From Lactobacillus sp. ESL0677 (GTDB lineage: Bacteria; Bacillota; Bacilli; Lactobacillales; Lactobacillaceae), in the NCBI RefSeq assembly GCF_029392875.1, contig NZ_CP113946.1:1736001-1800000 (forward strand): a stretch of DNA of 64,000 nt, given 5' to 3'. This document shows, one piece after another, positions 7,207 through 36,300 of this stretch. The notes under the pieces are model-generated. The model was not told the DNA's origin. It saw only the letters and a program-made list of their open reading frames with translations, and searched no databases. A program made the translations under genes and the position numbers. The first letter of the stretch is position 1, and the number at the start of each line of letters is the position of its first letter.

Positions 7207-7327
7207 ATCCAAGACAAACTTACAATATAGAAGAAAACCTTTCTAAATGTGAATTTTATTCAAACTACATTTTAGTAGAAGGATTTCTTCTATTTTTTAC
7301 TTTCCCCACAAATACTTCTTACGCTAA
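7207..7327 (-). mobile_element. Decayed, internally deleted relative of the ISLre2 element
   Basis: 7225-7327 is closely similar to the transposase upstream end of the IS at 4781-4880, including the large hairpin and the terminal CCCCACAAATACTT...ACGCTAA. Directly adjoining it, 7207-7224 is identical over 18 bases to an internal transposase segment (3955-3972, codons for CKFVLD). So most of the element has been deleted. The terminal ACGCTAA supplies the stop codon region of the neighbouring ABC gene. Confidence 0.75.
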
Positions 7328-8122
7328 TAACATTGCGTCATCCCTCAACCTAGAACCAACATTCTGTTGAAAGAGTGTCATCAACTTAGGAACCGTTAAT
7401 TGCCGTTTTTCTTCTCCAGCAAGATTTAATGCCACGCGGCCTTCATGGAGCATAATCAAGCGATTGCCATAGCGAATCGCATCTTCCATATTGTGTGTTA
7501 CCATAAAAGCCGTTAATTTTTGCTCAGTAATTAATTTTTCGGTTAAGTGCATGACAGTGATTGAAGTCTGAGGATCAAGTGCTGCTGTGTGCTCATCAAG
7601 CAAAATTAAGTCAGGACGCTTTAGCGTTGCCATTAGCAACGTAATTGCCTGCCTTTGTCCACCTGATAGCAGGCCAATCTCGGTTTGCAAGCGATTCTCC
7701 AAGTTTAACCCTAATTGTGCTAATTCTTTTTGAAAAAATTTGCGTTCTGAACGCTTAACTCCAGGTAAAAAGCCACGATGCTGGCCACGCTTCATCGCCA
7801 AAGCCAGGTTTTCTTCAACCGTTAACCTCACTGCCGTCCCCATTTTAGGGTCCTGAAAGACGCGACTAATATTTTTAGAACGCTTGGTCACCGATAACTT
7901 AGTAATATCTTGATTGTTTAAAAAAATCTGCCCCTCTTGAACGGGCAATGTTCCCGCCAAACTATTTAATAACGTTGACTTACCAGCACCATTACTACCA
8001 ATTACCGTAACAAAGTCACCCGCCGCAAGCTCAAGATTAATTCCGCGCAGCACCCGATTTTCGTTAACCGTGTCACGACCAAAAGTTTGGTGTAAATTCT
8101 TAATTTTTAATACTTGCGTCAT
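7319..8122 (-). CDS. ABC importer ATP-binding protein (TrpZ-like)
   Basis: 267 residues. Walker A GSNGAGKS (about 42-49), Q-loop VFQDP, signature LSGGQRQA, Walker B LILLDEHTAALD and switch His in VTHN are all intact. Note E-H-T instead of the more common E-P-T after Walker B. It should energise the permease encoded just upstream, with which it overlaps by 23 bp. Together with the lipoprotein it forms a TrpXYZ-like importer for an amino acid or related solute. The TAA stop lies in the end of the IS remnant, so the last residues may have been altered by that insertion. Confidence 0.85.
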   Translation of the reverse strand: MTQVLKIKNLHQTFGRDTVNENRVLRGINLELAAGDFVTVIGSNGAGKSTLLNSLAGTLPVQEGQIFLNNQDITKLSVTKRSKNISRVFQDPKMGTAVRLTVEENLALAMKRGQHRGFLPGVKRSERKFFQKELAQLGLNLENRLQTEIGLLSGGQRQAITLLMATLKRPDLILLDEHTAALDPQTSITVMHLTEKLITEQKLTAFMVTHNMEDAIRYGNRLIMLHEGRVALNLAGEEKRQLTVPKLMTLFQQNVGSRLRDDAMLLA

Positions 8123-9014
8123 TATTAGTTTCTCCTTTTTTCTTACCAGTTAAGTGAAAATTAGGCAGTGCCAAACAAACAACTAATACCAGCGCCGAAG
8201 CCAATTTAGCATCAGACGGTTCCACGTTCATTTGGAATACTAAAGCTAAAATCAACCGGTAGATAATTGCTCCCACAATTAGTGTTAATAGCCGTTTACC
8301 AATTGACAGATTACGAACCAAAACTTCGGCGATAATAATTGAAGCTAATCCAATAACCAAAGTTCCCACGCCGGAATTAAGGTCGGCAAAGCCATTGTTT
8401 TGGGCTAATAATGCACCAGAAAGTGCAATACAACCATTGGAAATCATAAAGCCTAAAATTTTCATTTGTTCAGTCTTAATACCGTTAGCAGCACTCATCT
8501 GCGGGTTATCCCCCGTTGCTCTCATTGCCAAGCCAATTTCAGTTTTAAAAAAGACATCAAGTAAGATAATCACCAATAGGCTAATTATCAGGCCCATCAC
8601 AATCACTGCATTATTATGTGACAAGCCCCAGCCCTGCACACTGGTAAAAATAGTTGCTTTACCTAAAAGAGAGACATTAGCAGCGTTGCCCATTACTCGC
8701 GAAGTAATTGAATATAACCCTGTCATCGTAATAATCCCCGCCAATAATGCTGGTATGCGCAACTTGGTATTCAAAATTCCGGTAACAAGCCCTGCAATTA
8801 AGCCACCGCCAAAAGCAGCAATTGTCGCTATAAAGGGATTGACTCCTTTTACTAAACAAATTACGGTAATCGCGCCGCCCAGCGGGAAGCTGCCTTCTGC
8901 TGTCATATCGGCTAAGTCTAAGATACGAAAAGTAAGATAAACACCAATTGCCATTAGCGACCATAACAGCCCCTGTGAAGTAGCTGATAAAAATAAATCT
9001 TGGAAAGTACTCAT
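8100..9014 (-). CDS. ABC importer permease (TrpY-like)
   Basis: About 304 residues, start taken at ATG 9014 rather than the TTG one codon earlier. Hydrophobic throughout, 8-9 predicted membrane helices, BPD_transp_2 type as in branched-chain and Trp importers (GNAANVSLLGKATIF, MRATGDNPQMSAANGI as the ATPase-coupling loop). It forms the channel of the importer with the proteins encoded on either side. The C-terminal tail is polar (KKKGETNNDASIKN), encoded in the overlap with the ATPase gene. Confidence 0.85.
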   Translation of the reverse strand: MSTFQDLFLSATSQGLLWSLMAIGVYLTFRILDLADMTAEGSFPLGGAITVICLVKGVNPFIATIAAFGGGLIAGLVTGILNTKLRIPALLAGIITMTGLYSITSRVMGNAANVSLLGKATIFTSVQGWGLSHNNAVIVMGLIISLLVIILLDVFFKTEIGLAMRATGDNPQMSAANGIKTEQMKILGFMISNGCIALSGALLAQNNGFADLNSGVGTLVIGLASIIIAEVLVRNLSIGKRLLTLIVGAIIYRLILALVFQMNVEPSDAKLASALVLVVCLALPNFHLTGKKKGETNNDASIKN

Positions 9015-9032
9015 CAACGTTAAACTGCCTTT

Positions 9033-10001
9033 CTATTTAGGAGCTTTAATCGAATTCGGGTTAATACCTAAAGCCTTAGCCATCTTTTTGTTTACAACTA
9101 ATTTCAAATTCTTTGCCCGTTGAACCGGCATATCTGCTGGCTTAGCCTTACCTGACAAAATTTTGGCTGCCATTTTACCAGTTTGGCGACCTAATGCTTC
9201 GTAATCAATTCCAATTGAAGCCAAACCACCAACTTTTACTTGGTCAATTGAGCCAGCTACTAACGGCACCTTCTTTTCCTTGACTACCTTACCTACAAGT
9301 GAAGCCGCAGAATCAAAAGTATTGTCGGTTGGCAAGAAGATCCCTTGAACCTTGCTTGCTAAAGTTTCGGTAACTTGTTGAACATCATTGGTTGTATTCG
9401 CGGTTTTAACTAAAACTTTTACCCCAGCCTTCTTTAAAGCAGCAATTGCCAAATCAGCCTGAATTTTTGAGTTCGATTCACCAGCGTTGTACATAATTCC
9501 AATTGTCTTAGCGTGCGGTACTATTGACAGCAATAATTTTATTTGCTTATCAATTGAAACCATATCGGTGGTTCCCGTCACGTTCTTGCCCGGCTTGGCA
9601 TCAGACTTAACCAACTTGGCCGCCTTTAAATCAGTCACTGCAGTTACAACCATCGGAATATCCTGAGATGTATTAGCCAAACTTTGCGCAGCAGGTGTAG
9701 CTATTCCCAAAATCAGGTCAGATTTTTCATTAACTAATTTTTCACTCATACTTTTGAGGTTGTCCTGACTATTCTGAGCATTTTGGTAATCAATCTTCAG
9801 ATTTTTTCCTTCAACGTAGCCCTCTTCTTTTAATCCTTCCTTGAAGCCTTTGTAGGCCTTATCAAGCGATGGGTGCTGGACAACTTGCAGAACACCAACA
9901 TGCTTTACCGCCGTACTTGTTCCCGCTTTTTTACTACTGCAACCACCTAAAAGCAATAAGCCAATCAAACTAATTCCTGCCGCTAATTTTTTAATATTCA
10001 T
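9033..10001 (-). CDS. Substrate-binding lipoprotein of the TrpXYZ-like ABC importer
   Basis: 322 residues, ABC_sub_bind family (periplasmic-binding fold similar to TrpX). A longer frame is open upstream to 10070, but the start is ATG 10001, which has the ribosome binding site GGAGG and directly begins a lipoprotein signal (MNIKKLAAGISLIGLLLLGGC, lipidated Cys21). The extra upstream codons run through the terminator hairpin of the leader. Members of this family bind Trp or other amino acids; the Tyr-rich leader peptide upstream makes an aromatic amino acid plausible here, as inference. First gene of a three-gene operon. Confidence 0.85.
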   Translation of the reverse strand: MNIKKLAAGISLIGLLLLGGCSSKKAGTSTAVKHVGVLQVVQHPSLDKAYKGFKEGLKEEGYVEGKNLKIDYQNAQNSQDNLKSMSEKLVNEKSDLILGIATPAAQSLANTSQDIPMVVTAVTDLKAAKLVKSDAKPGKNVTGTTDMVSIDKQIKLLLSIVPHAKTIGIMYNAGESNSKIQADLAIAALKKAGVKVLVKTANTTNDVQQVTETLASKVQGIFLPTDNTFDSAASLVGKVVKEKKVPLVAGSIDQVKVGGLASIGIDYEALGRQTGKMAAKILSGKAKPADMPVQRAKNLKLVVNKKMAKALGINPNSIKAPK

Positions 10002-10033
10002 GGTTTTTCCTCCAACTTCCAAAAATATTGCCA

Positions 10034-10300
10034 AATAAAAACACCCACTTATCTCTAAGTGGGTGCTCAAAAATTAACTTTAATCTGATTAAACTATCGC
10101 GATTAGCCACTTAGAAGTATGTGGCTAATCAATGTCAAATAACCTTAGCCATCATAGATAAACTCAAACTGTGCTCGGTTTGAATTCATCCTGATGAATC
10201 CAAACACTATCTAAAATAGCTAAGATAATAGCAGTTATTCAATTGTAATTCTCGTTTATGATTAATCTCATTCATTGAAAACTACCTCCGACCTTTGATG
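10034..10300 (-). promoter_or_regulatory. Candidate leader-peptide transcription attenuator of the ABC importer operon
   Basis: The leader RNA can form alternative structures. Stem A: 10208-10224 (inside the leader-peptide codons) with 10144-10160, 14 Watson-Crick plus 2 GU pairs, enclosing a 13-bp hairpin at 10178-10205. Hairpin B: 10101-10110/10121-10130, 10 bp. Terminator: CACCCACTTA/TAAGTGGGTG at 10042-10065 followed by a U-run. Competing pairs: the 3' arm of stem A (TGGCTAA) with the 5' arm of hairpin B (TTAGCCA), and the 3' arm of hairpin B (TCTAAGTGG) with the terminator arm (CCACTTAGA). A ribosome stalled on the leader peptide would break stem A and through this chain prevent the terminator. 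No T-box motif is present. Confidence 0.65.
10207..10275 (-). CDS. Putative 22-residue leader peptide (Tyr codons)
   Basis: ATG 10275 has an excellent ribosome binding site, GGAGGT, eight bases upstream. The peptide reads MNEINHKRELQLNNCYYLSY followed by FR and TAG. Three of its 22 codons are TAT (Tyr), two in tandem, and one is Phe, in the segment that forms the 5' arm of stem A of the attenuator. There is no Trp codon. This placement is what a ribosome-mediated attenuator requires: stalling at the Tyr codons would unmask downstream pairing. Confidence 0.6.
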   Translation of the reverse strand: MNEINHKRELQLNNCYYLSYFR

Positions 10301-10305
10301 ACAAA

Positions 10306-10334
10306 ATTATAAAATATTTAAAAATTAATGTCAA
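10306..10334 (-). promoter_or_regulatory. Promoter of the ABC importer operon
   Basis: Consensus promoter on the minus strand: TTGACA (10329-10334), 17 bp, TATAAT (10306-10311). It begins only 20 bp beyond the lepA2 stop codon. Strength suggests control is exerted after initiation, fitting the attenuator. Confidence 0.85.
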
Positions 10335-10353
10335 CACCATTTTAAAATTTTAA

Positions 10354-12141
10354 CTATAATTCCAAAATCACGTTAAATACTTCTTGCGGTAATTTAACTT
10401 CTCCTTGAGTTGCGCGGCGTTTATTTAAACTTTGCCGTCTTAGTAGCGCTGCTTTTTTGGAGACACTACGTTGCTTGCCGTCAACCGCCGCATTTTTACG
10501 CAGTGGCGGAACATCAACGCGAGCAATTGCTTTACCTTCAACAATTGCTTGCACCGGTGTCGGATAAAGCCGGCGCGGTACCGTGTACTTTAATTCTTTG
10601 ACCAACTTTTGTGCCATTTGCGGTGCATCCCCGCGGTGAACAACAAATGATAGTGAATCGACCGGCGCATAGTTAATATCCACCTCAATTTTAACTAGGT
10701 CAGCATCCTCATAATCCAAAAACTCCGTATTAAGTGTGGCATAACCATGCGATACCGACTTTAACTCGGAGAAGAAATGGTAGGCAACTTCAGACAGCGG
10801 CATCTTAACGGTCACCAAAATTTGTGCTTCATCATTGTCTAAATCAAGCAACGTGCCCTGATGCTGCTCCACTAATTTTAAAATGGCATTCAAAGTATCA
10901 CTGGGTGTCATAATTTCGGCTTTAATAAAGGGTTCTGTTACGTGATCAATCAAGCCAAAAGCAGGATATTGCGCTGGATTATTGATTTTCATCGTTTGGC
11001 CATTTTTGAGGTAGACGAAGTACGTCACGTTCGGCGCTGTTGTCAAAACATCAATCCCATACTCATCTTGCAACCGTTCACGAATAATTTCCAAATGAAA
11101 AGTCCCCAAAAAGCCACAACGAAAGCCTTGTCCTAAGGCTTCTGACCGCTCTTCGACAAAAGAAAATGACGTATCGTTTAAACTCAATTTATTCAGTGCC
11201 TGCTTTAATGCTGGAAAGTCATTATTTTTAGGATAAATTCCAGCAAAAACTAACTGTTTAGCTGGTTCATATCCCGGCAGGACCTCTTTAGTTGGTGTCA
11301 TTTTAGTTGTAACCGTATCGCCAACACGAATTTTTTTTGGATCCTTAATGCCCGTAACAATGTAACCAACCTCACCTGCGTGCAAGTCCTTTTGGGCCTG
11401 CATATTCGGAGTTAGTACTCCGATGCCCTTAGGTCGAAACGACAAGTCAGCTTGCATTAATTGCAAATCAGATGCGGCTGTTAACTGACCATCAACCAGG
11501 CACACATTAATAATCACTCCTTGGTAAGCATCATAAATTGAATCAAATACTAAGGCTTTAAGCGGCGCGCTACTATCACCACTAGGTGCCGGAATCCGCG
11601 TTCTAATGGCCTCAAGTAATTCGGGAACCCCCTGACCAGTTTTAGCAGAAATTAGCAGTGTTTGTGCCGGCGTAAAGGATTTATCCAGCTCAAGTAATTG
11701 CTGCTGTGTACGGGCAACATCGGCCGAAGCAATATCCACCTTATTAATCACCGGAATTAAGGCTAAATTGTTTTTCTTAGCAATGCGATAGTTGGCAATC
11801 GTCTGCGCCTGAATCCCCTGAGTTGCATCTACTAACAGCAGTGCCCCTTCGGTTGCGGCCAAGCTTTTGGCAACTTCATAATTGAAATCAACATGGCCAG
11901 GTGTGTCAATCAGATTATATTCATATTCCTGCCCATCCTGTGCCCGATAAAAATTACGTACAGTCCGCGCCTTAACAGTGACGCCGTGCTCCTGCTCAAC
12001 TTCCATATCATCCAACATCTGGTCGCTGCGTTCACGCTCACTAACCGTTTTGGTTAACGCCATAATTTGGTCGGCCAAGGTCGACTTGCCGTGATCAATA
12101 TGAGCAATAATTGCAAAATTACGAATTTGTGCTTGTTTCAT
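10354..12141 (-). CDS. lepA2: Elongation factor 4 (LepA) paralogue
   Basis: 595-residue translational GTPase, the usual LepA length and domain order: G domain (AHIDHGKST P-loop, DTPGHVDF, NKVD), then domains II, III, V and the Lys-rich LepA C-terminal domain (VDGKQRSVSKKAALLRRQSLNKRR). The switch I region reads VEQEHGVTVK where canonical LepA has RERGITIK, so this is probably the second LepA copy known from several lactobacilli (basis for the symbol). A TTG at 12159 is possible, but ATG 12141 has the better spaced GAGGA. It overlaps the tetR gene by 23 bp, so the two are translationally coupled. EF4 remobilises stalled ribosomes; the special task of the paralogue is unknown. Confidence 0.8.
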   Translation of the reverse strand: MKQAQIRNFAIIAHIDHGKSTLADQIMALTKTVSERERSDQMLDDMEVEQEHGVTVKARTVRNFYRAQDGQEYEYNLIDTPGHVDFNYEVAKSLAATEGALLLVDATQGIQAQTIANYRIAKKNNLALIPVINKVDIASADVARTQQQLLELDKSFTPAQTLLISAKTGQGVPELLEAIRTRIPAPSGDSSAPLKALVFDSIYDAYQGVIINVCLVDGQLTAASDLQLMQADLSFRPKGIGVLTPNMQAQKDLHAGEVGYIVTGIKDPKKIRVGDTVTTKMTPTKEVLPGYEPAKQLVFAGIYPKNNDFPALKQALNKLSLNDTSFSFVEERSEALGQGFRCGFLGTFHLEIIRERLQDEYGIDVLTTAPNVTYFVYLKNGQTMKINNPAQYPAFGLIDHVTEPFIKAEIMTPSDTLNAILKLVEQHQGTLLDLDNDEAQILVTVKMPLSEVAYHFFSELKSVSHGYATLNTEFLDYEDADLVKIEVDINYAPVDSLSFVVHRGDAPQMAQKLVKELKYTVPRRLYPTPVQAIVEGKAIARVDVPPLRKNAAVDGKQRSVSKKAALLRRQSLNKRRATQGEVKLPQEVFNVILEL

Positions 12142-12799
12142 TGTGTTTTTGTTCCTCAAAAAATCCTATTAAATAATAACGCATTTGGGCTTCAGCTTCC
12201 GCGACTAAATCAATCGTAAAATCGGGATAAGTCAAAGCAACTTGGTGGTGGTTAAAGCTGGCAAGCGAGGACATATTCATCAAGCCACTGATAATTGCGC
12301 TTTGGATAATAAATAAATGACTAAATTGTCCTTGAGTTAACAGCTGCTTACTTTTAGTTGCCAGCAATGTTCCCAATTCCTGACTAACCGCATACAACTG
12401 GTTGCGGCGCTTAATCGTCTCCGCCATATTGGCTTTACCTTCTAGCACCGGCCCGCGAATGGCATTTAAGCGCACCAATTCCGCATGCCCATTAATTAAC
12501 TCTCGCGTTGAACTAATCATTAAGTTAGTAAAGTCCGACTGGGTTACTTCACGTTTGAGACTAACCTGCTTGATGATTTTAGTAAAAAAGGCGCAGTAGT
12601 CTTCCAGCAAGACACTCATAAATAGGTCTTCCTTGGTTGCAAAATAGTTGAAAACCGTGCCCTTAGCCATTCCCGCTGCATCGGCAATTTGTTTCATCGT
12701 AATTTGGGTATAACTTTGCTTGGCAAAAAGCTGCATGGCCGCCTGCATAATTAGTTGGCGTTTGGCACGTTTTTGCTGGACTGTATGAATATTTGGCAT
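12119..12799 (-). CDS. TetR-family transcriptional regulator
   Basis: 226 residues. N-terminal helix-turn-helix (ITMKQIADAAGMAKGTVFNYFATKEDLF, about 33-60) typical of TetR repressors; the C-terminal helices form the ligand-binding and dimer domain with no recognisable specificity. It is co-transcribed with, and overlaps, the LepA paralogue. A palindrome TGACC-AAA-GGTCA (12838-12850) overlaps its own -35 box, suggesting autoregulation of the pair. A GTPase gene is an unusual partner for a TetR gene; drug pumps are more common. Confidence 0.85.
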   Translation of the reverse strand: MPNIHTVQQKRAKRQLIMQAAMQLFAKQSYTQITMKQIADAAGMAKGTVFNYFATKEDLFMSVLLEDYCAFFTKIIKQVSLKREVTQSDFTNLMISSTRELINGHAELVRLNAIRGPVLEGKANMAETIKRRNQLYAVSQELGTLLATKSKQLLTQGQFSHLFIIQSAIISGLMNMSSLASFNHHQVALTYPDFTIDLVAEAEAQMRYYLIGFFEEQKHNETSTNS

Positions 12800-12822
12800 T
12801 TTTTCACCTCTAACTTAAAGGT

Positions 12823-12851
12823 ATTATTACGCAAAACTGACCAAAGGTCAA
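12823..12851 (-). promoter_or_regulatory. tetR-lepA2 promoter with TetR-type operator
   Basis: Minus strand -35 TTGACC (12846-12851), 17 bp, AATAAT (12823-12828). The perfect inverted repeat TGACC-N3-GGTCA (12838-12850) covers the -35, a typical position for a TetR operator. Confidence 0.5.
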
Positions 12852-12864
12852 TTTTAATTAATTA

Positions 12865-12890
12865 AAAAAGATCAGCTTAACTGATCCTTT
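12865..12890 (-). terminator. Terminator of the ABC-F gene
   Basis: Minus-strand stem AAAGGATCAG/CTGATCTTTTT with loop TTAAG followed by a U-rich tail; lies four bases beyond the stop codon. Confidence 0.75.
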
Positions 12891-12893
12891 TAC

Positions 12894-14438
12894 TTATTGG
12901 TTCATCGTTTCAATATCAATTGTCTTATCAACCCAGTCACCTTGGAAAAAGTCGCGCTCGTGACTAACAATAATCACGCCTCCAGGAAAATTAACAATTG
13001 CCTTGCGCAGTGCATCCTTAGTATCACGATCCAAGTGGTTGGTCGGCTCATCTAAGAACAACAAGTTGGCTGGTTCAAACTGCATCTTTGCCAGCTTAAC
13101 CTTTTCTTGTTCACCACCAGACAATTTTTTCAATGGACTCATTGCCTGCTGTGCCGTCACACCCATGCGAGCCAAAGCACCACGTAATTCCTTTGGCTTT
13201 TGCCGCTCAAATTCTTCCTGCAAATATTGCAGCGGCGTCATATTGTTATTCGGCCACGTCAAATCCTGCTTAAAATAGGCTAATTTCGCCGTTGTTGATA
13301 ACTCAAAGTCACCAAAAATTGGTTTTAGTTGCCCTAGCAGAGTTTTAAGCAAAGTAGTTTTCCCAATTCCGTTAAAACCAGTGATGGCCACTTTTTCATT
13401 ACCGCCAACTGAAAAGTTAAATGCCTCTTTAACAAGAGCGTGGTCATAACCGATTACCAAATCTTGTGTCTGCAGCAATAAGTTAGAAGCCGTTGCAACG
13501 TAGGGAAATTCAAATCGCGCACGTCGATTAGACTTCGGTGGTGTCAGAACATCCATGTGGGCTAACTGACGTTCACGTGACTTAGCACTTTTAGAACGTG
13601 TTCCCGCCTTATTCTTACGGATATAGGCTTCAGTTTTGGCAATTTTGCGCTGCTGATTAGCATAAGCCTTGAGATAGGTTTCACGATTAGCTTCTTTTTG
13701 GCGCATTGCTTGCTTTAAAGTTCCCGTATAGCGCGTGATTGTGCCGACATCAACGTCAATAATGCAGTTGGTAATTCGACCCAAAAAGTCATAGTCGTGG
13801 CTAACGACAATAAACGCACCTGCGAAGTCATTTAGATAATCAACCAACCAGTCAATATGTGACACATCAAGATAGTTAGTCGGCTCATCAAGCAGCAAGA
13901 CATCAGGGTTCTGCAATAATAATTTGGCCAGAATAATTTTCGAACGTTGACCACCAGAAAGCTGCGCCACATCATGATCGTAACCTAGTTCTGCCAAACC
14001 AAGTCCCGACGCAACACGCTCGATTTCCGTATCAATACCATAGAAATTATTTTCTTCTAAGTAAGTCTGAACTTTACCGGCCTTTTCAAGTAACTCGGCA
14101 GCACCATTCTCGGCATATTTGGCATAAAGCTCATTTAATTCTCGTTCTTTTTGATATAGTGGTGCAAATGCCGTTCGCAAAAAGCCGCGGATTGTTTCAC
14201 CCGGTGTTAATTTGGCATACTGATCAAGGTAGCCAACATCAACCTTATTCTGCCACTTAACTTGCCCTTCGTCCGGCAACATTTCTCCCGTTAAAATCTT
14301 AATTAAGGTTGATTTACCAACCCCATTTTGTCCCGTGACCCCCATGTGATCCTCTTTATTAAGGACAAAATTCGCATTCTCGTACAAAGTTTTATCAACA
14401 AAACTTTGACCCAGATTTTTAACCGTTAGTAAACTCAT
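12894..14438 (-). CDS. ABC-F family ATPase (YkpA/YbiT-like)
   Basis: 514 residues with two ATP-binding cassettes and no membrane segment. First cassette: Walker A GQNGVGKS (about 37-44), LSGGQRSK, LLLDEPTNYLD; second: GFNGIGKT, LSGGEQEK, LFLDEPTNHLD. A charged linker rich in Lys/Arg lies between them. The start is ATG 14438 (AAAGGGATGG upstream), not the frame opening at 14555. ABC-F proteins act at the ribosomal E site; the YkpA-like branch is housekeeping rather than clearly antibiotic-protective. Promoter candidate TTGAGC-17-TATATA just upstream. Single-gene unit. Confidence 0.85.
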   Translation of the reverse strand: MSLLTVKNLGQSFVDKTLYENANFVLNKEDHMGVTGQNGVGKSTLIKILTGEMLPDEGQVKWQNKVDVGYLDQYAKLTPGETIRGFLRTAFAPLYQKERELNELYAKYAENGAAELLEKAGKVQTYLEENNFYGIDTEIERVASGLGLAELGYDHDVAQLSGGQRSKIILAKLLLQNPDVLLLDEPTNYLDVSHIDWLVDYLNDFAGAFIVVSHDYDFLGRITNCIIDVDVGTITRYTGTLKQAMRQKEANRETYLKAYANQQRKIAKTEAYIRKNKAGTRSKSAKSRERQLAHMDVLTPPKSNRRARFEFPYVATASNLLLQTQDLVIGYDHALVKEAFNFSVGGNEKVAITGFNGIGKTTLLKTLLGQLKPIFGDFELSTTAKLAYFKQDLTWPNNNMTPLQYLQEEFERQKPKELRGALARMGVTAQQAMSPLKKLSGGEQEKVKLAKMQFEPANLLFLDEPTNHLDRDTKDALRKAIVNFPGGVIIVSHERDFFQGDWVDKTIDIETMNQ

Positions 14439-14991: not shown

Positions 14992-15984
14992 TTAACCATT
15001 ATTTTTAAAAGTAGACACAAACTTTAAATAAGCTTCCTGCTCGCCAGTTGCGGCAATCTTAATCTGATCATGCGCAAATTCTGCTTCATGCAAGCATTCT
15101 TCGGGTAGCGATATCTGGTGGGTCACGGTCGCATTACCAATTAACTCGATCCAGTAACGATTAGCATCAGAGTGGATTTTTGTCTGTACCAATCCCCCAG
15201 GATTATAAACTGTCAACAGCTCATCCAGCCCAACCTGCTCTGGATAAGTTAAGTGCCCAGCTAAGCTAGTCGCCGACATTCCCGTTCCACAGGCGTTGGT
15301 AAAGCCAACGCCGCGCTCATAAGTCTCCACAAACAACCGATTAGGCGCCAAAATTTGGGCAAAGCTAACATTCACCCCATCTGGAAAATACGGATTAGGT
15401 TGATTTAATTGCCGGCCCAACCGGCGCAGTGCTTCGTGAGCCCCATGAACATCATCGACAAAACTGATTAAGTGCGGATTAGGAACCGCTAGCGCAGTAA
15501 ACTTCAATTTAGCAGCCAGCTTCGGGATCGACTGATTAATAATTTTCGTTAAGGACAAATTATGCCAACCAACTTCACTTGCTGCAAACGACACTGGCGC
15601 AATTTCAACACTAAAAGCCGGCACATTAGGGGCCAAGTCTGGATATTGCTGCACATGCAAATTTGCCGCAGCCGTTTGTACTAAAAACTTGCGCTTGTGC
15701 AGTTTACTAACTAAATATCGGGTAACTGTGCGCAAACCATTGCCACACATCAATGCTTGTGACCCGTCCTTGTTAAAAATACGCATTCGCGCGACAGCAG
15801 TCTGGTTAGTTGCCGGTTCGACAACCAATAGACCGTCGCTGCCACCAAGTAATCCTGTTTTGGTGTCCGTGATTTTAACAGCCAGATGCTCTAATTCAGA
15901 CGTTGTTAGTGGCTGCACTAGTTTTGTTTGGTCTAGTAAAAAGAAGCTGTTTTGTGACCCATGAACTTTTTCTATATTAATCAT
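14992..15984 (-). CDS. dapF: Diaminopimelate epimerase
   Basis: 330 residues. DapF interconverts LL- and meso-diaminopimelate, the last step before peptidoglycan use or decarboxylation to lysine. Both catalytic Cys are present: MCGNGLR (near residue 79) and NACGTGMSA (near 232), in the two mirror-related halves typical of the fold. The protein is 50 or so residues longer than enterobacterial DapF. Its ATG overlaps the stop codon of lysC by one base (TAATG), so the two genes are translationally coupled. The pair stands divergent from the main lysine operon. Confidence 0.92.
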   Translation of the reverse strand: MINIEKVHGSQNSFFLLDQTKLVQPLTTSELEHLAVKITDTKTGLLGGSDGLLVVEPATNQTAVARMRIFNKDGSQALMCGNGLRTVTRYLVSKLHKRKFLVQTAAANLHVQQYPDLAPNVPAFSVEIAPVSFAASEVGWHNLSLTKIINQSIPKLAAKLKFTALAVPNPHLISFVDDVHGAHEALRRLGRQLNQPNPYFPDGVNVSFAQILAPNRLFVETYERGVGFTNACGTGMSATSLAGHLTYPEQVGLDELLTVYNPGGLVQTKIHSDANRYWIELIGNATVTHQISLPEECLHEAEFAHDQIKIAATGEQEAYLKFVSTFKNNG

Positions 15985-17351
15985 TATTCTTTTGCTTTCT
16001 GTGTGAAAAAATTATTATAAATTTGTCTAACAGCTGCTGGAGCATCCTTACGTTTAGTTCCCAGCATAATTGAAATTCGTGATGCCCCCTGGTTAATCAT
16101 GTGAACACCAATATTTCGGGCTGCAAGTGGCTCAATGATTTTAGCCATCACGCCAACTTTGTTCCGCATTCCTTCGCCGACCACCATGATAATGGCATAA
16201 TCATCAATCCATTCCAGACTATCCGGTTGCAATTCCGTCCGAATTTCCTGACACATCTTTTCGCGAACACCAGCGGTAAATTGGCGATTATCAAAAATCA
16301 CTGTCAAGTCATCAATTCCTGACGGCATATGCTCGTATGAAATGTGATATTTATAAAAAATTTGCAGCAATTTTAGGGTAAAACCCACCTCTTTGTTTAA
16401 CAAATATCGGTGTAAGTAAAGTGCCGAAAAGTGGGTTGCAGTCGCTACTCCCGTGATCACGTTGACTGGTTGAAAGTTCTTTGTCGGAACAATCATTGTT
16501 CCCTTAAGACGAGGATGGTTAGTATTTTTAACATTAATCGGAATATTAGCCGCAATTGCCGGTAAAATCGCTTCATCGTGAAAAACAGAAAAGCCCGCGT
16601 ATGATAGTTCTCGCATTTCGCGATAAGTCATTTTGTTAATCGCCCTTGGATGCGCAACAATTGCCGGGTTAGCCGCATAAATTGCGTCAACATCGGTAAA
16701 GTTTTCGTACACATCCGCATGAAAGCCGCGAGCTAAAACAGCACCAGTAATATCCGAGCCACCACGAGAAAACGTAGCAATTTGTTTTTGCTTCGTTAAG
16801 CCATAAAAGCCCGGCACAATTAGATAGCCAGTTGGCAGATGATACCGCGCTAAATTGTCATAAGTGTCCGGTAAAATCATGGCCGCTTGAGGATTATCTG
16901 TCACTTTAATCCCCAATTCTTCACTACCAGCAAAATGTGCATTTAAGTTTAATTTTTGTAATATTAGCGTTAATAAGTGTGCATTTAAGATTTCACCATG
17001 TGCTTTAAAAATTGCTAATAAATAATCATCAGTTTGGTATTCTTTTTTTGGTAAGTCCAATAAAATTTGCTTTAGTCTTGTCAATTCTTCACTTGGCACG
17101 GAAAAATGATTGCCGATTTCGGCATAGCGTTGCCAAATTTGCTCCTGAATAGCAGACAAACTTTGATTAGCCAGCGTTCTATGCGCGTATTCTATTAGTA
17201 AATCTGTTATTTTATAATCATTTTTGTCCCGCTTGCCTGGTGCCGAAGTCACAATGACTTTGCGCTCTGGATCTGCGGTAATAATCTTAATAATTTTTTC
17301 AAAATGTGGGCCATCTGCTAATGAACTGCCGCCAAACTTAACTACTTTCAT
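15984..17351 (-). CDS. lysC: Aspartate kinase (monofunctional, ACT domains)
   Basis: 455 residues, close to B. subtilis YclM in length and layout. It phosphorylates aspartate, the entry reaction to lysine/DAP, threonine and methionine. Seen: KFGGSSLAD at residues 5-13, FSRGGSDITGA near 205-215, and two C-terminal ACT-type modules (VGFTLKLLQIF, VGEGMRNKVGVMAKI...MINQGASRISIML) that normally give feedback control. The frame is open upstream to 17420, but ATG 17351 has AAAGGATT upstream and begins the conserved strand. Its leader of about 50 nt has no riboswitch, so lysine control here is probably allosteric. Confidence 0.92.
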   Translation of the reverse strand: MKVVKFGGSSLADGPHFEKIIKIITADPERKVIVTSAPGKRDKNDYKITDLLIEYAHRTLANQSLSAIQEQIWQRYAEIGNHFSVPSEELTRLKQILLDLPKKEYQTDDYLLAIFKAHGEILNAHLLTLILQKLNLNAHFAGSEELGIKVTDNPQAAMILPDTYDNLARYHLPTGYLIVPGFYGLTKQKQIATFSRGGSDITGAVLARGFHADVYENFTDVDAIYAANPAIVAHPRAINKMTYREMRELSYAGFSVFHDEAILPAIAANIPINVKNTNHPRLKGTMIVPTKNFQPVNVITGVATATHFSALYLHRYLLNKEVGFTLKLLQIFYKYHISYEHMPSGIDDLTVIFDNRQFTAGVREKMCQEIRTELQPDSLEWIDDYAIIMVVGEGMRNKVGVMAKIIEPLAARNIGVHMINQGASRISIMLGTKRKDAPAAVRQIYNNFFTQKAKE

Positions 17352-17410
17352 TTTTTGGTCTAATCCTTTTTTATAAAAACTACTGGTAAATTTTTGAAAG
17401 ATTAGTTGCA

Positions 17411-17438
17411 ATTCTAGCATTTATTTTTTAATCTGCAA
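17411..17438 (-). promoter_or_regulatory. Promoter of lysC-dapF
   Basis: Minus strand TTGCAG (17433-17438), 16 bp, TAGAAT (17411-17416). Confidence 0.6.
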
Positions 17439-17520: not shown

Positions 17521-17756
17521 GGCAATCGAAGAGGTCGCGGTGACCATTAGTAAATTAGCTGAGTTTTGCTAAAACTATGAAGCTAATTAAAAGGGGAAAC
17601 TGCCGAAGCATTAATTTGCAAGCAAAAATTAATAGCTGGGCCATGATTGAACAAATCATGGACTGTCGTAGAAAATCTACGGAGCGCTTCCGACAATTTG
17701 ATACCAGATATTAATTCAGGTTCTTTTGTTTCAGCGCAAACAAAAGAACCTTTTTT
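17521..17756 (+). promoter_or_regulatory. Lysine riboswitch (L-box) with terminator
   Basis: The aptamer shows the conserved L-box elements in order: GAGGTCGCG (17530s), AGTAA, AAAGGGGAAACTGCCGAAGC (around 17590-17610), AGCTGGGCC (17635-17643), GGACTGTCG and GGAGCG. It is followed by a 13-bp terminator stem, GGTTCTTTTGTTT/AAACAAAAGAACC (17719-17750), and TTTTTT. When lysine binds, the terminator should form and shut off the seven genes downstream. A long frame runs through the element, but it is not the coding start (see lysA). Confidence 0.93.
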
Positions 17757-36094: not shown

Positions 36095-36300
36095 AATAAA
36101 AAACTCGCCCCTTCTTACATTCTCGTAAGAAGAGACGAGTTTTTACCCGCGGTACCACTCTTGTTGATACAAAGTATCCGCTTATTAATTGACTGCATTA
36201 TCGCCTAAGCACGCCTTCATTCACCCTCTAATTTGCCTCCCACTCTATGCAAACTCGCTTAATAAAGAAATGAATTACTACTCCTAAGCTATTTAAATAG
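36095..36300 (-). promoter_or_regulatory. T-box riboswitch of the amino-acid importer operon
   Basis: The T-box itself, AGAGTGGTACCGCGGGT, is at 36145-36161 (minus strand), followed by an 18-bp terminator stem (36101-36118 / 36125-36142) and a T-run. Stem I is recognisable: lower pairing GCTTAGG with CTTAGGC, a 5' loop side AGTAGTA and a 3' side GAAGGCGTG, upper pairing ATTCATT with GGTGAAT. The triplet after GAA is GGC, which would specify tRNA-Gly; this reading is tentative. Promoter TGGACA-16-TATAAT (36303-36308) is just upstream. Confidence 0.88.

Follow-up and report, generated by a model that had tools for sequence, protein, structure and literature searches.

The regulatory element described here is most probably, with a likelihood of roughly 0.87, a tyrosine-sensing, ribosome-mediated transcription attenuator of a tyrosine importer. 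It is located on the minus strand of the window (the whole stretch of 64,000 nucleotides of Lactobacillus sp. ESL0677 DNA that was analysed), between lepA (10354–12159) and a three-gene ABC importer. When tRNA-Tyr is charged, translation of the leader would run up to its stop codon, stems A and B would form, and the terminator would halt transcription before the importer genes. With uncharged tRNA-Tyr the ribosome would wait on the Tyr codons at position −7, −6 or −3 before the stop, masking the 5′ arm of stem A (A5). With A5 masked and the inner hairpin H still formed, the 3′ arm A3 would pair with B5, the 5′ arm of hairpin B, so that its 3′ arm B3 is freed; free B3 would then pair with the 5′ arm of the terminator (T5), no terminator would arise, and the tyrosine importer would be transcribed. 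With the ribosome at the stop codon H5 would be masked as well, upon which H3 would take part of A3 and termination would be maintained. Sequence comparison brings out the leader frame and its codons, the alternative helices and their conservation, the downstream genes and the residues of the importer pocket, and from these we infer ribosome stalling, the order of refolding and the response to tyrosine.

Organization of the leader region

The leader transcript is preceded by a promoter, TTGACA-17-TATAAT (10306–10334), which agrees with the consensus at 12 of 12 positions, as the preliminary description of this DNA had recognized, and which is the only exact match in the whole window (0.05 expected from shuffled sequences). 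Loose scans of the region 9400–13500 overall revealed no excess of promoter-like sites (10, versus 9.3 in shuffles) or terminator-like sites (4, versus 4.2). The Shine-Dalgarno sequence GGAGGT (10284–10289) stands 8 nucleotides before the ATG of a leader frame of 22 codons (10207–10275), which encodes MNEINHKRELQLNNCYYLSYFR followed by a stop codon; both are read directly, as noted before, and a frame with an aromatic run recurs in 124 of 124 fetched loci of the Rfam family RF02863. Stall modelling with hairpin H held in place puts the sensor codons at −7 to −3 before the stop (10216–10230; Tyr, Tyr, Leu, Ser, Tyr). The element as a mere terminator of lepA is ruled out, since a perfect promoter of the element's own and a conserved leader intervene.

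The pairing segments of the RNA, all on the minus strand, are arranged as a relay. A5 (10207–10226) overlaps the last leader codons and is found in both the minimum free energy (MFE) fold and the consensus fold. A3 (10142–10161) alternatively pairs with B5 (10121–10130), both segments being indicated by the MFE fold and by strand exchange between loci. Hairpin B in the MFE fold pairs 10130–10121 with 10110–10101, and B3 together with the adjacent loop (10101–10115) forms the antiterminator strand, as suggested by its coevolution with T5. The intrinsic terminator (T5/T3, 10039–10068), identified by a terminator scan, has 13 base pairs and runs into a T-rich tail. Stem A, hairpin B and the terminator, all proposed earlier, are thus recovered, and the two chained complementarities proposed with them are exact: TGGCTAA (10151–10145) with TTAGCCA (10128–10122), and TCTAAGTGG (10115–10107) with CCACTTAGA (10062–10054). 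Hairpin H had been overlooked and supplies one more alternative helix. Its 5′ arm (H5, 10194–10205), just past the stop codon, is indicated by the MFE fold, the stall model and strand exchange; H3 (10178–10189) is the partner of H5 or, once H5 is masked, of A3′ (10169–10158), and both pairings show conservation across a set of 107 distinct loci. The leader region has a fold energy of −83.5 kcal/mol, compared to −51.9 ± 4.6 kcal/mol for shuffled sequences (z −6.9; none of 200 shuffles as good).

The earlier statement that no T-box is present at the element holds: the T-box model RF00230 has no gathering-level match anywhere in the window, and no match up to E=5 in the region 9950–10400. T-box control of the leader is ruled out on this ground. 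Elsewhere in the window a T-box-like match scores under the gathering threshold (36128–36295, minus strand; 70.3 versus 93 bits), and a lysine riboswitch (RF00168, 118.8 bits; 17521–17697, plus strand) adjoins a divergent minus-strand reading frame (15984–17420) with amino acid kinase and ACT domains.

An Rfam family annotated as a small RNA

The window element matches the Rfam family RF02863 (sRNA_2410) at 10059–10223 on the minus strand with a covariance-model score of 73.1 bits, which exceeds the gathering score of 61 bits (E 5.7e-10), and the two are the same element. The family is typed as an sRNA in Rfam and called an Enterococcus sRNA; its model starts within the leader frame and lacks both the leader start and the terminator, and the window match stops inside the 5′ arm of the terminator. 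The available part of the study of Enterococcus faecium (PMC5593968) describes sRNA_2410 as a 195-nucleotide RNA by RNA-seq with two transcripts on Northern blots, with a count 2.3-fold higher in the presence of daptomycin (adjusted p 0.03), and that part gives no function for it.

Among 395 genomes sampled from the order Lactobacillales, 215 (52 of 80 genera) have a match to RF02863, only 99 of the 395 being above the gathering score; the 14 control genomes have none. In a class-wide sample 27 of 299 genomes have the family, five of them outside the order (G403, G514, G541, G550 and G560); the occurrences outside Lactobacillales comprise other Bacilli and one Clostridia genome. For detailed comparison 124 loci (32 + 92) were fetched. 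An exact-pattern scan of named genomes gave at least 117 stretches, from which 80 among the matches listed were used and 78 kept, L139 and L185 being discarded as chance-like. Among the matches listed are genomes of Enterococcus, Tetragenococcus, Streptococcus and Lactobacillus (kimbladii, helsingborgensis and uncultured), and further of Ruoffia, Fundicoccus, Aliicoccus and Terrisporobacter.

The next recognized gene in the 124 fetched loci encodes a TrpX-like protein in 74 cases, followed in number by aroE (39, including that of L053, which sits beyond another reading frame), DAHP synthase (6), pheA (2) and aroC (1); in the two others a different transporter gene comes next (L082) or the sequence ends too early (L107). 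Representatives of aroE, DAHP synthase, aroC, prephenate dehydratase (L106) and shikimate kinase (L205) were checked against NCBIfam or Pfam. The operon at L184 reads aroE-DAHP synthase-aroB-aroC-tyrA, with aroE and aroC assigned by eye.

A trans-acting small RNA, as the family name implies, would account for the Rfam typing and for the short E. faecium RNA and its Northern transcripts (PMC5593968, as far as its available part goes). It is nevertheless extremely improbable: a TrpX-like or aromatic-synthesis gene lies downstream in 122 of the 124 loci, the gene is preceded by the leader frame and, in 123 of 124, by a terminator following that frame, premature termination would yield the same short RNA, and the Rfam model itself begins within the leader frame. 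A plain sRNA is rejected on this cis context, and the present data would make RF02863 a cis-acting attenuator.

Several elements precede genes of other kinds. At L138 (Ruoffia halotolerans) a citrate-transporter-like membrane protein (PF03600) follows, and at L082 (G317), judged by eye, a tandem solute-binding protein resembling family 3. A complete-looking element with a terminator and a leader ending in QFNLYYFSYFR is found in Terrisporobacter mayombei (L160, Clostridia) before a gene of a branched-chain amino acid transporter family (PF05525), which suggests transfer and a newly regulated gene. Two weak family matches, L307 (G514) and L308 (G541), have leaders with both Trp and Tyr, ending in RYYYFGWFS and NIWYSYRR, and their downstream genes resemble, by eye, a transketolase and a sodium symporter.

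Conservation of the alternative helices

To evaluate the helices, strands were exchanged between loci, and the pairing energy of native and exchanged combinations was compared for 114 distinct loci out of 122 (L102 and L107 gave no segments); as the loci are related, the resulting p-values are optimistic and only indicative. The antiterminator helix B3:T5 is markedly better in its native combination (−13.95 versus −9.70 kcal/mol; an advantage seen in 109 of 114 loci, p=1.8e-20), and this coevolution indicates that the terminator and antiterminator helices are mutually exclusive. Stem B is better with native strands in 99 of 114 loci, and the H3:A3′ helix in 81 of 107 (p=2e-7). The control pair H5:A3′ shows no native advantage, and for the role-less pairs A3:B3, B5:T5, A3:T5 and A5:B5 the native strands are no better than exchanged ones.

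The helix A3:B5 is far more stable than its shuffled counterparts (−14.92 versus −7.05 kcal/mol, better in 114 of 114) and is nearly invariant across the loci, and for that reason no covariation is claimed for it: strand exchange gives p=0.07 with the longer B5 strands and p=0.03 with truncated B5. RNAalifold analysis of 42 fetched leaders, in many of which the terminator half is missing, recovers A, H and B, with two-sided changes in 13 of 30 pairs; covariation contributes little to the energy (−1.97 kcal/mol), and many stem A pairs show no variation at all. Compensatory changes, proposed as a check in the preliminary description, are seen for B3:T5 and fail to emerge for A3:B5. The order of events proposed there (a stall opens A, A3 takes B5, and B3 is freed) is backed by the conserved aromatic leader and the coevolution of B3 with T5.

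Codon usage of the leader peptides

The second part of the proposed check, conservation of aromatic codons, gives a uniform picture: in the same frame of all 124 fetched loci, Tyr or Phe takes up four or five positions among the six codons −7 to −2. The commonest leader end is [YF]YFSYFR. The stop codon is at the usual place in 114 of the 124 leaders, and in 10 the frame extends slightly. Trp occurs anywhere at −16 to −1 in only one fetched locus (L125). For codon statistics 148 distinct leaders were derived from 202 (the 124 fetched and 78 named loci). Codons −7 to −3 comprise 46.8% Tyr, 30.0% Phe and 0% Trp, compared to 0.9% Tyr, 0.3% Phe and 0.1% Trp at codons −16 to −12.

A segment of the peptide upstream of the aromatic run is conserved as well, which brings in another explanation, in which a nascent peptide (QLNN followed by aromatic residues) would stall the ribosome on a small molecule, such as Tyr, Phe or a pathway intermediate, and not via uncharged tRNA. 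The TnaC peptide stalls the ribosome in response to tryptophan. Leu at −10 is present in 97 of the 148 leaders, encoded by CTG (66), TTG (21), TTA (6) and CTA (4), and the use of four codons indicates that selection there acts on the amino acid; Gln at −11 (89 of 148) is likewise kept with changing codons, and [QK]LN directly precedes the aromatic run in 97 of the 124 fetched loci. However, the other 27 loci (e.g., L079, L106 and L114) lack [QK]LN yet retain the aromatic codons, the identity of these codons tracks the importer pocket, also in leaders that are all Tyr, all Phe or of the Trp kind (see below), and induction by an excess of product would have the wrong sign for genes of import or synthesis. 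Arrest by the nascent peptide is therefore considered unlikely.

Modelling of stalled ribosomes

To understand how a stalled ribosome may affect the fold, the RNA up to the terminator loop was folded with everything upstream, plus 12 nucleotides beginning with the A-site codon, hidden. At equilibrium, the mean antiterminator probability over 122 loci is 0.39 without a ribosome, 0.72–0.80 for stalls at codons −7 to −3, and 0.52 at the stop codon. The window leader itself does not switch in this model (antiterminator ≤0.03 for stalls at −7 to −3), because H3:A3′ outcompetes H5:H3. Values of 0.89–0.96 are obtained for positions past its stop codon, and these were set aside since the leader ends there.

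An additional assumption, introduced after this equilibrium result, is that H remains formed whenever H5 is free, given that H is transcribed first. The mean antiterminator probability over the 122 loci is then 0.31 without a ribosome, 0.86–0.91 with the A site at −7 to −3, and 0.52 at the stop; a stall at codon −5 exceeds the ribosome-free state in 119 loci and the stop state in 117. For the window leader the corresponding values are 0.00 without a ribosome, 0.53–0.80 for stalls at −7 to −3, and 0.02–0.03 from −2 to the stop. The productive codons of the window are thus Tyr, Tyr, Leu, Ser and Tyr, and the Phe codon at −2 falls outside.

Crossing from below to above 0.5 upon stalling is predicted for 78 of the 122 loci. 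In 45 loci the prediction has all three states, with a probability under 0.5 both in the ribosome-free RNA and with the ribosome at the stop, and over 0.5 for a stall at codon −5. Among the exceptions, 34 loci reach 0.5 or more with no ribosome and 61 do so with the ribosome at the stop, and 11 stay below 0.5 when stalled at codon −5; the second copy of the importer in the window genome (L002) has a predicted antiterminator probability of 0.78–0.94 in all states, with no switching. The model backs the placing of the sensor codons on average, and is no proof for each locus. The stall order put forward in the preliminary description agrees with the model on average, and for the window itself in the model with H held, but not at equilibrium. 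Because no more than 45 of 122 loci are predicted to switch through all three states, confidence is reduced slightly in the tyrosine attenuator and further in the wider proposal of an aromatic regulon (see Implications).

Modelled stalls at the Leu and Ser codons within −7 to −3 are as productive as those at Tyr, as would be expected of a general translation sensor, in which any slow translation, caused by an antibiotic or by shortage of other amino acids, would release the importer without amino-acid specificity. The aromatic codons, however, cluster at the productive positions, are hardly ever found upstream of them, and vary among paralogues in step with the pocket, which makes such a general sensor very unlikely.

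Specificity of the importer

The importer consists of a substrate-binding lipoprotein (9033–10001; PF04392), a permease (8100–9017; PF02653) and an ATPase (7319–8122; PF00005), all encoded on the minus strand. The initial designation as a TrpXYZ-like importer is apt in that the binding protein is TrpX-like and accompanied by permease and ATPase, but the protein is not TrpX itself, as its score of 331 bits is below the cut-off of 390 bits of the TrpX equivalog NF041285. The third paralogue of the window genome passes this cut-off (407 bits); the second copy (340 bits) and L045 (328 bits) fail.

According to the accessible portion of Bradshaw et al. (PMC6816091), CD0873 was found with bound Tyr, VC_1101 with Phe and SP1069 with Trp; the deciding pocket residues are Glu263 or Ala at one position and Tyr279 or Gln284 at the other, and in CD0873 the hydroxyl of tyrosine is held by the Glu263 side chain. 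Among relatives with a solved structure, the closest to the window protein in sequence is CD0873 (6hni, 249 bits), followed by SP1069 (3lft, Trp-bound; 220 bits) and VC_1101 (206 bits). The window protein has the Tyr/Phe type of pocket (Ser/Tyr): like CD0873 it has Tyr at position 279, and not the Gln of the Trp pocket (Gln284 of SP1069), whereas Glu263 of CD0873 is replaced by Ser. The Tyr that excludes tryptophan is present at the second pocket position in 76 of 76 rows, which represent 74 distinct RF02863-linked importer genes (the window and L002 genes are counted twice), and Ser occurs at the first position, as in the window, in 67 of the 76. We infer from these residues that the window importer transports tyrosine, and the earlier choice of tyrosine over tryptophan, made from the codons, is backed by the Trp-excluding Tyr.

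Correspondence between leader codons and importer pockets

By comparison of the sequences, the leader codons are matched to the importer pockets, and the three importers of the window genome illustrate this: YYLSY goes with Ser in the window importer, SYFSF with Ala in copy 2, and a Trp codon with Gln in copy 3. The third paralogue (L253, C1:173780), with an Ala/Gln pocket of the Trp type, has its own, different leader, MIQSTSLNMNKSWQGQQD followed by a stop codon, about 250 bases upstream of the binding protein (fold z −8.0), and this leader is a candidate Trp leader-peptide attenuator.

A set of 30 fetched Lactobacillaceae loci with the best-matching Trp-type proteins shows the Gln pocket in all 30 and an upstream reading frame with Trp codons in all 30, 27 by one filter and three more (L262, L263 and L266) by a laxer one. 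The first filter applied to 200 shuffles finds on average 3.0 and at most 8 of 30 loci, and when WQ[SGN], WW or WRR is required the numbers are 27 versus 0.04 in shuffles. None of these 30 loci has an Rfam match at the gathering level, and within this Lactobacillaceae sample the earlier expectation that such transporter operons are usually under T-boxes fails. The named loci add 11 Gln-pocket proteins, of which 8 likewise have Trp-codon leaders, and some Trp leaders, reading QLNNAWWRR, closely resemble QLNN-YYFSYFR.

In 20 Lactobacillaceae loci of the other type, containing 33 proteins, the second pocket position is Tyr in 27, Phe in 6 and Gln in none, and the first genes have Tyr- and/or Phe-rich leaders in 17 of the 20, some all Tyr (YYYGYY) or all Phe (FFFDFF). 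Phe accounts for a share of 0.69 of the sensor codons in leaders of 15 proteins with Ala or Val at the first position, compared to 0.39 for 110 proteins with Ser, Thr, Asp or Glu (p=4e-4), or 0.74 versus 0.35 on distinct combinations (p=0.004). This statistic is based on leaders in the fixed frame plus 23 hand-entered leaders of the 33 Lactobacillaceae proteins of Tyr/Phe type; the ten others had no clear leader or a leader that was unchecked, and the automatic leader picker took wrong reading frames at some loci (e.g., L003, L004 and L101). The same correspondence is found within tandem loci, where Asp goes with YYYGY and Ala with FFAGF (L292), or Thr with YYYGY and Val with FFFGF (L287 and L298). 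The correlation has exceptions, including L283, L284 and L286, where an Ala pocket is paired with a Tyr-rich leader, and L051, L086 and L301, where a Ser pocket is paired with a Phe-rich one.

A tryptophan attenuator at the window locus is ruled out: Trp is absent from the sensor codons of all 127 leaders paired with Tyr/Phe-pocket importers, and the importer has no Trp pocket.

In three leaders Phe is the sole aromatic codon (L296, FFAGFFF; L299, FFFDFF; L301, FAFSFFF), and these are candidate phenylalanine-specific attenuators. Near a second Tyr-type importer locus of a genome of the same genus, a Na+ riboswitch aptamer (RF03071, 45.4 bits) is found at L291 1505–1564 on the plus strand.

Relation to known systems

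Leader-peptide attenuation is a classical mechanism. The nearest known design is that of the his operon attenuator of enterobacteria, a six-segment device that, like the window element, combines repeated regulatory codons in its leader peptide with a relay of alternative hairpins running to the terminator; the likeness is one of design, and the present family differs by its Tyr/Phe codons, the extra H3:A3′ helix near the stop codon and its occurrence in Lactobacillales.

In Firmicutes, the available parts of the respective reports describe a histidine leader peptide for hisZ/hisS paralogues of bacilli (PMC2965389), which resembles the window element in mechanism, as leader-peptide attenuation replacing a T-box, and differs in amino acid and genes, and a Leu-rich attenuator of ilv in S. 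aureus (PMC5794164), likewise an amino-acid leader peptide in a Firmicute, but for Leu and branched-chain synthesis. The trpXYZ operon of Streptococcus suis, a shown Trp importer, is according to the accessible text under a Trp T-box with specifier UGG (PMC9382623). Control of this homologous ABC importer is likewise induced by starvation, but there the RNA reads the uncharged tRNA, whereas in the window element the ribosome would do so.

Song et al. (2005) drew on Merino's database to list putative attenuators upstream of operons with tyrA in Enterococcus faecalis, Streptococcus pneumoniae, Lactobacillus plantarum and Lactococcus lactis (PMC1173090). These attenuators concern the same kind of aro operon, but are predictions of terminators and antiterminators, with no mention of a leader peptide or codon sensor in the available part of that paper. 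A literature search, in which subscription journals were poorly covered, found no leader peptide described for trpXYZ-like or aro operons of the order. The preliminary idea is supported and extended by the sequence data: the kind of mechanism is known, and the family appears to be new and large, with a distinct RNA layout, and to have been hidden under an sRNA label.

Implications

On the best reading of the comparative data, the window element would belong to a large aromatic regulon. A wider proposal, held only slightly above even odds, is that RF02863, rather than being an sRNA family, forms the core of a Lactobacillales-wide aromatic regulon, in which interchangeable Tyr, Phe and Trp leader codons match the importer pocket and the eight-segment RNA reads the position of the ribosome twice. 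As part of this joint proposal, the sensor codons would allow antitermination in the first reading, and in the second the stop codon would place the ribosome over H5, so that H3 locks A3 and termination is restored. For the window genome the importer would be of particular weight: the TyrA, PheA and chorismate synthase families have no match in it, each of them being matched in 14 of 14 control genomes, and import should therefore be essential.

For enterococci, streptococci and lactobacilli the results propose a regulatory function for an Rfam sRNA family, and they predict the substrate specificity of importers that have been annotated toward tryptophan transport. The Tyr, Phe and Trp leaders provide a natural series for testing codon sensing. 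Such a regulon, if true, would presuppose that these Firmicutes couple translation to transcription. Johnson and co-workers are said to have found in 2020 that the two processes are uncoupled in Bacillus subtilis. Whether in Firmicutes other than B. subtilis the ribosome follows RNA polymerase closely enough for translational attenuation is a debated point, which the leaders described here would make testable.
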